DNA of 21,412 nt from a virus: positions 1 through 21,412 of the IMG/VR virus record IMGVR_UViG_3300028925_011376; one strand, written 5' to 3'. The notes below the pieces were generated by a model. It saw only the letters and a list, made by a program, of their open reading frames with translations, did no database searches and was not told the origin of the DNA. Position numbers and translations under genes: made by a program. The number at the start of each line of letters is the position of its first letter. Positions within the stretch are counted from its first letter, which is position 1. Below, in pieces: positions 11,159-20,829 of the stretch.

Positions 11159-11232
11159 CGTGTGGATAACGTTTACAATTATGTATATGGTTATGGTAAT
11201 GTTTTCAATTTATTGTATAACACAGATATAGA

Positions 11233-11261
11233 TTGACACTATCTATATAATAGTATATAAA
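11233..11261 (+). promoter_or_regulatory. Strong sigma70-type promoter for tmRNA
   Basis: TTGACA (11233-11238), exactly 17 nt, TATAAA (11256-11261). The predicted start is near 11268, just before the acceptor piece of the tmRNA. The 70 nt upstream (11159-11232) are AT-rich without a gene and could act as an UP-like element. Confidence 0.75.
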
Positions 11262-11424
11262 TAAACTGTAACGTTGAAGCAAGTTGAAAACTAGACTGGA
11301 CCCGGGGGCAGTACCCGGCAACTCCACCAAAATTTATGGGGTTGAAATAGGATCGACAGATAGACAATAGACAAGTGGAGTTACCCGGATGTAAGCACGG
11401 TTATCGCGAACGAAAACTATAATT

Positions 11425-11466
11425 GTAAATGACAATTATGCGCCAGAGATGGCAATGGCTGCCTAA
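11425..11466 (+). other. tmRNA proteolysis-tag reading frame
   Basis: GTA resume codon at 11425-11427, then AAT GAC AAT TAT GCG CCA and on to TAA at 11464-11466, giving VNDNYAPEMAMAA. The N-D-N-Y-A core and Ala-Ala end are like bacterial tags (E. coli ANDENYALAA). Starting with Val instead of Ala and ending Met-Ala-Ala instead of Leu-Ala-Ala are the differences. The resume codon is inferred from the upstream U-A and from the frame. Confidence 0.82.
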
Positions 11467-11495
11467 TTAGGTAACCGGGGTTGGCAACTGACCTA

Positions 11496-11518
11496 GCAAC
11501 AGAATAGTTGCACTTTTT
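11496..11518 (+). terminator. Hairpin and T-run at the 3' end of tmRNA
   Basis: GCAAC (11496-11500), loop AGAATA, GTTGC (11507-11511), then ACTTTTT. A 5-bp stem with five T residues, consistent with either an intrinsic terminator or a 3'-end processing hairpin of the coding piece. Confidence 0.5.
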
Positions 11519-11532
11519 ACTAGGGGTGTCTA

Positions 11533-11640
11533 ATGGATTGGTTAACAGATTATATAGAGCAGTTATTAAGTAGATTCATAAAACCTAAACCTGAAGTTAG
11601 ATACTTGTCTGGTAAAGGAAAACTAGGACCAAAAGGGTAG
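11533..11640 (+). CDS. 35-residue basic peptide downstream of tmRNA
   Basis: ATG 11533 to TAG 11640. AGGGG at 11522-11526 is a fair ribosome site. The peptide begins M-D-W-L-T-D-Y-I-E-Q-L-L (amphipathic helix) and ends in a Lys/Gly/Pro-rich tail (G-K-G-K-L-G-P-K-G). It lies directly after the tmRNA, so a read-through transcript could express it. Not recognised. Its short length keeps confidence modest. The following 57 nt (11641-11697) hold no clear signal apart from the AAAAAGGA ribosome site of the next gene. Confidence 0.45.
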   Translation: MDWLTDYIEQLLSRFIKPKPEVRYLSGKGKLGPKG

Positions 11641-11697: not shown

Positions 11698-11964
11698 ATG
11701 GCAAAAAGAGGATCAGGTGATAACTACAGCTCTAAAGGAGAACGTAGTAATACATCTAAGAAGTTACAAAAAGCAATACGTAGAGATTACATAGAGAATA
11801 GAGGCATGGAGAGAGCAATTAACCAAGTTAAGGCTTGGAGGCAAGGAAAGAATGTTATGTTAACAGTTGCAAATCCAAGTAAGGCAGAGACTAACAAACC
11901 GTTCTTAAGAAAGTCTGCTCGTGAAGTTTGGGGATCACCGTTTAACAAACCTTCGACAAAATAG
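11698..11964 (+). CDS. Small strongly basic protein, hypothetical
   Basis: 88 residues from ATG 11698 after AAAAAGGA. Very rich in Lys, Arg, Ser and Asn (for example K-K-L-Q-K-A-I-R-R-D-Y), with no hydrophobic segment. The composition suggests nucleic-acid or ribosome contact, but I see no family motif, so this is inference from charge alone. It lies between the tmRNA region and a thermonuclease-like gene that may have its own late promoter and ribosome-site hairpin. Confidence 0.65.
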   Translation: MAKRGSGDNYSSKGERSNTSKKLQKAIRRDYIENRGMERAINQVKAWRQGKNVMLTVANPSKAETNKPFLRKSAREVWGSPFNKPSTK

Positions 11965-19949: not shown

Positions 19950-19957
19950 TATAAATA
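19950..19957 (+). promoter_or_regulatory. Consensus late promoter before Hsp20
   Basis: Exact TATAAATA, the best late box in the window, 62 nt before ATG 20020. Between them GAAGAC (19963-19968) can pair with GTCTTC (19979-19984) as a small hairpin in the leader, and AAAAGGAG provides the ribosome site. Confidence 0.68.
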
Positions 19958-20019: not shown

Positions 20020-20463
20020 ATGACAAGATTAACCACACTCGACTTCAATAAACTAACACCATACGCAGTAGGCTTTGATAAAGTAATAGACGACATGTTT
20101 CGCTATGCAAATCATCAAGCATCAAGCAATGGATATCCACCTTACAACATTATAAAGAACGATAACGAATTTCAAATTGAAATTGCACTCGCAGGAGTAA
20201 AGCAAGAAGATTTGGATATTAACGTTGCAGAAGGTGTTCTAAATGTTTCACACAACCCACCTGAAATTGACGAAGAAAAACAAAACTTTCCAGGGGCATA
20301 TGTTCATAGAGGAATTGCTCAACGTAAGTTTAGCAGAAACTTTACATTATCAGATGATGTTGTTGTACAAAGTGCAAAATTTGAGAACGGTATGCTCTGT
20401 ATTAGTTTAGAGAGAATCATTCCCGAAGAGAAGAAACCTCGTAAGATAACCATTAAGTCTTAA
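20020..20463 (+). CDS. Small heat shock protein (Hsp20/IbpA-like)
   Basis: 147 residues, usual for IbpA-type proteins. The N-terminal region ends in Y-P-P-Y-N-I-I-K (39-46). The alpha-crystallin domain then shows F-Q-I-E-I-A-L-A-G-V (51-60), Y-V-H-R-G-I-A-x-R-K-F-S-R-N-F-T-L (94-110) and F-E-N-G-M-L-C-I-S-L-E-R. The C-terminal I-x-I motif (I-T-I in R-K-I-T-I-K-S) for oligomer contacts is present. Holds unfolding proteins, likely phage structural subunits, in a refoldable state. Hsp20 genes are common in T4-like cyano- and pelagiphages. Start ATG 20020 after AAAAGGAG; probably late-expressed. Confidence 0.95.
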   Translation: MTRLTTLDFNKLTPYAVGFDKVIDDMFRYANHQASSNGYPPYNIIKNDNEFQIEIALAGVKQEDLDINVAEGVLNVSHNPPEIDEEKQNFPGAYVHRGIAQRKFSRNFTLSDDVVVQSAKFENGMLCISLERIIPEEKKPRKITIKS

Positions 20464-20520: not shown

Positions 20521-20829
20521 ATGACTAGTAATATTAACAACACTAAATTAAAAGTTAGACAGATAGAAACTATTAGTCCGCCAATGGATTGTAAGGTCAT
20601 TTATATGAATGATGATGTCACAACATTTGACTTTGTATCTGGTAGTTTGGTGAACTTTTTTGAATACGATCCTAAGTTAGCACAAGATAAAAGTGTAGAG
20701 ATTAATGATAAAGGGTCAGGAATAGTTGCTGTACTGCCTTATGAGATTGCAGAACAAAAAGGCGTAGAAGTACTAATATCTGCAAGGACACAAGGATTTC
20801 CTATGGAAATTAAATTAGAAACTGCTTGA
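20521..20829 (+). CDS. clpS: ClpS-like adaptor of the ClpAP protease
   Basis: 102 residues, close to E. coli ClpS (106), alignable by eye over residues 23-102. N30-D31-D32-x-T34 matches the N-D-D-Y-T core; F38-V39, F46-F47-x-Y49-D50 and A76-E77 (E-I-A-E, matching E-V-A-E) follow in order. The 22-residue N-terminal arm needed for delivery to ClpA is present. E. coli ClpS brings N-degron substrates to ClpAP. Several pocket residues differ: positions equivalent to M40, M62 and H66 are F36, S58 and N62. Specificity may therefore be changed, or it may bind ClpA without delivering substrates. GGAG precedes ATG 20521. Expression is probably with Hsp20. Confidence 0.9.
   Translation: MTSNINNTKLKVRQIETISPPMDCKVIYMNDDVTTFDFVSGSLVNFFEYDPKLAQDKSVEINDKGSGIVAVLPYEIAEQKGVEVLISARTQGFPMEIKLETA

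Follow-up and report, generated by a model that had tools for sequence, protein, structure and literature searches.

The window, by which we mean the whole stretch of DNA analyzed here, is a 21-kb fragment from a virus record of 21,412 bases, and it carries at positions 11268 to 11514 a complete circularly permuted (two-piece) tmRNA gene of the alphaproteobacterial type. From the RNA anatomy, its conservation, the promoter enrichment, and the absence of a phage SmpB, it is very likely a functional phage tmRNA that relies on the SmpB of the host and is made in both the early and the late phase to rescue ribosomes. With somewhat less confidence, we favor the view that the permuted tmRNA gene in this phage group is a phage-adapted bifunctional unit. 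A fused early/late promoter would drive a precursor that is first the mRNA for a small protein encoded in the spacer and, once cut, the tmRNA; the spacer would be an exchangeable cargo site, of which the 8 nt in the window are the empty version. What is new here is the fused promoter, which is conserved at tmRNA genes and precedes very few other genes of the same loci, and the small protein genes in the gap between the RNA pieces of related phages.

The window also encodes NrdA, NrdB, glutaredoxin, a PAAR spike protein, a cell-wall hydrolase, an SNase-type nuclease, Hsp20, and ClpS; the PAAR gene suggests a contractile tail. Searches against 50,697 phage records returned one weak, partial match for the tmRNA (blastn) and a single 49-bp match for the window (megablast); no named phage in that set is closely related. 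A scan of genome contigs for the GGGGTTG stem pattern found nothing, and tblastn with NrdA gave no informative host signal.

Anatomy and tag of the tmRNA

The first-pass annotation had proposed a phage-borne permuted tmRNA and had named a poor score on the Rfam alpha_tmRNA model as evidence against it. Using cmscan, we found that RF01849 (alpha_tmRNA) matched positions 11213 to 11514 over the full model (1-355) with 127.9 bits against a threshold of 50 (E 5e-35), and RF04321 (tmRNA_permuted) matched 11268 to 11466 with 113 bits against a threshold of 47. Both scores are far above chance. Direct reading and the two covariance models agreed that the acceptor half, with its CCA end at 11329, lies 5' of the coding half that starts at 11338. 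The perfect acceptor stem and the complete T-arm described earlier were also borne out: 7 of 7 acceptor pairs form, with G-U at pair 3, leaving the Ala identity element intact. Features are listed in Table 1. The terminator-like hairpin is weak evidence taken alone (1 found versus 0.5 expected in shuffles).

Table 1. Positions of the tmRNA gene, its parts, and neighboring features in the window
Feature	Position	Strand	Basis or remark
Hybrid promoter TTGACA (11233-11238)-N17-TATAAATA (11256-11263)	11233..11263	+	Motif scans and comparison
Acceptor piece (tRNA-like 3' half)	11268..11329	+	Rfam and direct reading; 5' end inferred from model and promoter
P2 5' strand GTAAC	11268-11272	+	Can pair with GTTAC 11380-11384
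T-arm CCGGG-GGCAGTA-CCCGG	11302-11318	+	Direct reading
Acceptor 3' strand CAACTCC	11319-11325	+	Direct reading
Discriminator A; CCA	11326; 11327-11329	+	Direct reading
Intervening sequence AAATTTAT, 8 nt	11330..11337	+	Predicted removal by tRNA-type processing
Coding piece (mRNA-like half), including tag region and downstream stem	11338..11514	+	Rfam and direct reading
Acceptor 5' strand GGGGTTG	11338-11344	+	Direct reading
P2 3' strand GTTAC	11380-11384	+	Direct reading
Tag frame VNDNYAPEMAMAA-stop, GUA resume codon	11425..11466	+	Expected product tag A-VNDNYAPEMAMAA
Terminator-like hairpin GCAAC-AGAATA-GTTGC and T run	11496..11519	+	Overlaps tmRNA 3' end
Small ORF MDWLTDYIEQLLSRFIKPKPEVRYLSGKGKLGPKG just downstream of tmRNA	11532..11639	+	No family match
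phrog_23239 gene	11698..11964	+	Directly follows tmRNA in L123, L141, and L149; syntenic marker
Hsp20 chaperone	20020..20463	+	Linked to clpS in relatives; TATAAATA upstream at 19950
ClpS adaptor homologue	20521..20829	+	Possible pathway partner

Across 140 aligned viral and bacterial permuted tmRNAs, the acceptor stem was 100% paired. Acceptor pairs 5 and 6 occur as several compensated pair types in this set, and T-stem pairs 1 to 3 covary. The gene order is also kept in diverged phages: in L123, L141, and L149 the tmRNA stands directly upstream of the phrog_23239 gene, with neighbor proteins at ~40-72% identity, and L123 retains the Hsp20-ClpS order as well. With the two covariance models, this order and the compensatory changes support the claim of a phage-borne permuted tmRNA. 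The 8-nt loop between the pieces is real but not unusual. Spacers of 3-19 nt are common in streamlined alphaproteobacteria and other phages, and we dropped it as an exceptional feature for this reason.

The tag codons are GTA AAT GAC AAT TAT GCG CCA GAG ATG GCA ATG GCT GCC TAA, preceded by A at -11 and U-A at -5/-4 relative to the resume codon. The resume frame depends mainly on A86, at -4 (PMC2481249); the window tmRNA has this base, and both U85-A86 and an Ala-Ala tag end are present. The AMAA ending and the U-A ahead of the resume codon had been noted before and were read directly here. The Val start held up in the nearest relative, contig L002/L220, whose sequence opens within the tag region and from there to the 3' end of the tmRNA matches the window without a difference. 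Since GTA and the whole 3' part recur in this independent contig, GTA cannot be put down to a sequencing error. Beyond the tmRNA, the two have diverged in the intergenic stretch; at L220:200-340, a unit (ggttacttaataaactcgta...) that is single in the window is duplicated after the tmRNA.

The nearest tmRNAs by sequence are those of L221 (86%), L088, L222, L123, and L150. The L221 tag, ANDNYAPEMAMAA, equals the window tag except for its first residue, and ANDNYAPEMALAA is common to L150, L207, and L222. Among 84,980 genomes of bacteria and archaea, a degenerate search for NDNYAPEMA, with the Tyr codon fixed as TAT, matched 2 contigs, whose gene content is phage-like in both cases; the related NDNYAP pattern matches 95 viral contigs. 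When Val replaced Ala in the pattern, the matches apart from the window and L220 were L088 and L091 alone. Nearly all bacterial or MAG loci with a parsable tag resume at GCN (L295 may use GTC); because the parse favored GCN when several frames were open, this indicates the rarity of other resume codons, not their absence. Judged by these comparisons, the window tag falls in a class typical of phages, and GUA is a rare resume codon.

Several side observations concern these relatives. Very long tags (~20-31 aa), e.g., ANDNALSNVTFVDFSAPVTAVNEDFALAA, occur in the phage permuted tmRNAs of L151, L163, L193, L206, L175, L209, L525, and L538; we dropped long tags as a phage-specific trait because bacterial tmRNAs carry them too. 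By eye, an IscU-like protein (L221:943-1332) is encoded near the tmRNA of L221, a phage-like contig that had been assigned to a Neomarinimicrobiota MAG (335 kb). On L222, a phage-like contig inside a "Rickettsiales" MAG, Rieske-oxygenase-like (L222:3959-5047) and AdoMet-decarboxylase-like (L222:3004-3366) proteins, also judged by eye, stand next to the tmRNA.

Promoter upstream of the tmRNA

The tmRNA had been placed behind a near-consensus host promoter. It is more than that: behind a TTGACA -35 box, its second element is the T4-type late motif TATAAATA. As judged from sequence, a sigma70 -35 box and the late motif are joined in one element with a shared -10. TATAAATA is the T4 late promoter and is close to cyanophage NATAAATA (PMC2984593). 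From the spacing, the sigma70 start is predicted near 11268, where the acceptor piece begins. Our promoter scanner accepts only T as the sixth base of the -10 box and therefore missed the hybrid. The window has two matches to TTGACA-N16-18-TATAA where 0.11 would be expected, and TATAAATA alone is not enriched there (3 found versus 4.4 expected).

The hybrid lies upstream of 36 of the 109 distinct viral permuted tmRNAs versus 0 of 87 bacterial ones, and TATAAATA, with or without the -35 box, upstream of 51/109 versus 0/87. Since related sequences are not independent, Fisher p-values for this enrichment overstate its significance; among viral representatives at <80% identity, 12 of 32 carry the hybrid. 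A larger viral set had it at 63 of 137 tmRNAs and TTGAC-TATAAT at none. Within the same loci, we counted the hybrid at 45 tmRNA copies and only 3 genes, while the classical TTGAC-TATAAT preceded 62 genes and 0 tmRNAs. Outside tmRNAs, TATAAATA stood upstream of ORFs 67 times in the sense orientation and once in the antisense only; it is therefore a real promoter element.

The protein annotated as the late sigma factor in Pelagibacter phage HTVC008M has a relative (E 1e-16) on a 116-kb contig with the hybrid promoter, L145/G369. Searching 19 viral contigs for gp55 relatives gave matches in two, G369 and G399; the protein is divergent and the contigs are incomplete. The permuted tmRNAs of the isolates HTVC008M, DSS3P8, and RcSimone-Hastad lack the hybrid promoter.

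Protein genes in the spacers of relatives

The window's own spacer holds no gene. Among its relatives, spacer length ranges from 3 to 266 nt, and several long spacers contain complete ORFs: of 75 aa in L222 (L222:3404-3862, nested in a 266-nt spacer), L364, and L366; of 47 aa, membrane-like, in the 156-nt spacer of L367 (L367:642-989); and of 62 aa in L377, L383, L401, and L425. All eight loci are recognized by Rfam as permuted tmRNAs that span the spacer. If these genes are what they appear to be, the pre-tmRNA would also be an mRNA.

The ~62-aa family sits between tmRNA halves in 31 of its best 80 relatives (26 located by script and 5 added after the flanks were read), namely, within the set L377, L383, L401, L425, L460-L470, L482, L487, L503, L506-L517, L523-L525, and L538. 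These nested loci comprise 21 distinct DNA sequences with a median dN/dS of 0.18, and their variable sites number 30/15/51 at the three codon positions, which shows that the protein is under selection. An AAGGA Shine-Dalgarno sequence begins one base after the CCA, and the stop codon falls 1 nt before the coding piece. The ends of cargo spacers are complementary and covary, e.g., ACATTGA/TCAATGT and ACACTGA/TCAGTGT. L401 and L425 share the same cargo sequence though 25 of the 66 acceptor-piece positions are different between them, which suggests cargo exchange.

Stand-alone members of the family were also seen. In L471, L510, L533, and L539, the gene starts 14-16 nt behind tRNA-Thr(UGU) (4 of 4 checked), and in L518 and L521 the upstream sequence resembles a tmRNA 3' end. 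The 62-aa gene is possibly a mobile small gene linked to tRNAs and tmRNAs.

ARAGORN reported no tmRNA anywhere in the window and also missed the cargo-bearing tmRNAs tested; it does detect those of L123, L150, and L221. ARAGORN-based surveys therefore probably undercount phage tmRNAs.

Function and relation to known tmRNAs

We infer processing, charging, dual transcription, and a benefit to the phage along the following lines. Transcription would start at ~11268, from the hybrid promoter, by host sigma70 RNA polymerase early and with a gp55-type phage sigma factor late. RNase P and 3' processing would remove the 8-nt spacer, leaving the acceptor piece with its CCA end paired to the coding piece, and the G3-U70 pair would direct its charging with Ala. 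With host SmpB, the tmRNA would enter stalled ribosomes, add A-VNDNYAPEMAMAA, and free the ribosome, and the tagged chain would pass to host ClpXP or ClpAP. No smpB was found in 35 viral tmRNA records (0/35), and the same SmpB model detected the gene in 10 of 14 control genomes; the phage would have to borrow SmpB from its host. The fused host-type and late phage elements predict rescue through the whole infection, and dual early/late transcription would let the phage keep rescue capacity while degrading host DNA and mRNA.

ClpS occurs in 12 of 41 tmRNA records, but five of these 12 had been selected through ClpS; leaving those out, it is in the window and 6 of ~35 viral contigs chosen for the tmRNA alone. 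At 9 kb away, ClpS was not supported as a tmRNA operon partner, and we treat the two as co-occurring only. E. coli ClpS diverts ClpAP from ssrA-tagged proteins. When aligned with it, the window ClpS has Phe for Met40 and Asn for His66, which we take to be pocket residues, and these replacements may change the choice of N-degron.

The main alternative to this rescue role is that the phage tmRNA competes with host tmRNA and that its phage-specific tag changes the proteolytic fate of tagged chains, with phage ClpS helping to free ribosomes while degradation is changed or slowed. It would fit the near confinement of the tag pattern to phages, the ClpS genes of tmRNA-selected contigs, and the retention in L123 of the Hsp20-ClpS order together with the tmRNA. 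However, the tag ends in AMAA, near the canonical ALAA, retains NDNY, and looks degradable; moreover, the pattern search covered only TAT for Tyr, and the co-occurrence of ClpS may reflect one phage lineage. We consider this alternative unlikely. Less probable still is recycling of host proteins, in which the tmRNA tags them early to supply amino acids. PMC9004378 proposes this for phage Melnitz because its tmRNA follows an early promoter, and a -35 box is likewise present at the window tmRNA. That idea concerns early action only, whereas the -10 element in the window lineage is the late motif and predicts late action too.

Since tmRNA genes are common integration sites (PMC9004378 and PMC11915505), the gene could also be a functionless passenger, a host tmRNA copied in a past integration. 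This we find barely credible: both halves are complete, the gene has its own phage-type promoter and compensatory stem changes, and its order is stable in diverged phages. In addition, a second assembly shows no change in the 3' part, against drift in the neighboring intergenic region, and no decayed copies were seen in close relatives. Nor is the gene the partial tmRNA fragment expected of an integration-site remnant of host ssrA; the match in the window is full length.

Phage tmRNAs had been described as mostly one-piece, but the two-piece form is not exceptional: a survey of 133 unique phage tmRNAs assigned 53 to it, 50 of the 53 from marine or aquatic phages (PMC9004378), and a single pattern of ours finds permuted tmRNAs in >120 viral contigs. 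A two-piece tmRNA in a phage is thus an already published kind and fairly common in marine phages. The window shares with Melnitz and the pelagimyophages (PMC9004378) a permuted alphaproteobacterial-type tmRNA in a marine myophage with NrdA/NrdB. In the Methylophilales phage Melnitz, the tmRNA lies upstream of a transcription coactivator, a glutamine riboswitch is reported, and there is an early promoter only (PMC9004378); the window differs in its neighbors, hybrid promoter, GUA resume codon, and NDNYAPEMAMAA tag. By cmscan, the window had no match to the glutamine riboswitch RF01739 or to any other riboswitch. L088 and L091 do carry a glutamine riboswitch (L088:6146-6194 and L091:11662-11710) ~1.7 kb from the tmRNA, and both have the GUA resume codon and 8-nt spacer of the window. 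HTVC008M has a permuted tmRNA unannotated in its record (KC465899 145161-145370, 90.6 bits, tag ANFNEYALAA), which lies close to the annotated late promoter transcription factor and is without the hybrid promoter.

Bacterial permuted tmRNAs of the alphaproteobacterial type (RF01849/RF04321) share with the window the gene order, two pieces, a tRNA-like domain, and a tag ending in AA. They differ in score (listed bacteria mostly 150-313 bits, checked phage members 94-145), in promoters without TATAAATA, and in a GCN resume codon in nearly all parsed. For RB49, S-PM2, and Syn9, early and late promoter types both lie upstream of one gene, and the overlapping promoters in RB49 and cyanophages were proposed to give middle-type expression (PMC2984593); in the window lineage, by contrast, they form one fused element almost confined to tmRNA genes. 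As for the spacer, PMC11915505 describes one permuted tmRNA intervening sequence with a tRNA-Ala gene and one with a repetitive element and, in the passages covered, mentions no protein gene there, nor did we find one in the literature searched. Compared with those cases, the intervening sequence in the phage relatives is filled by protein genes.
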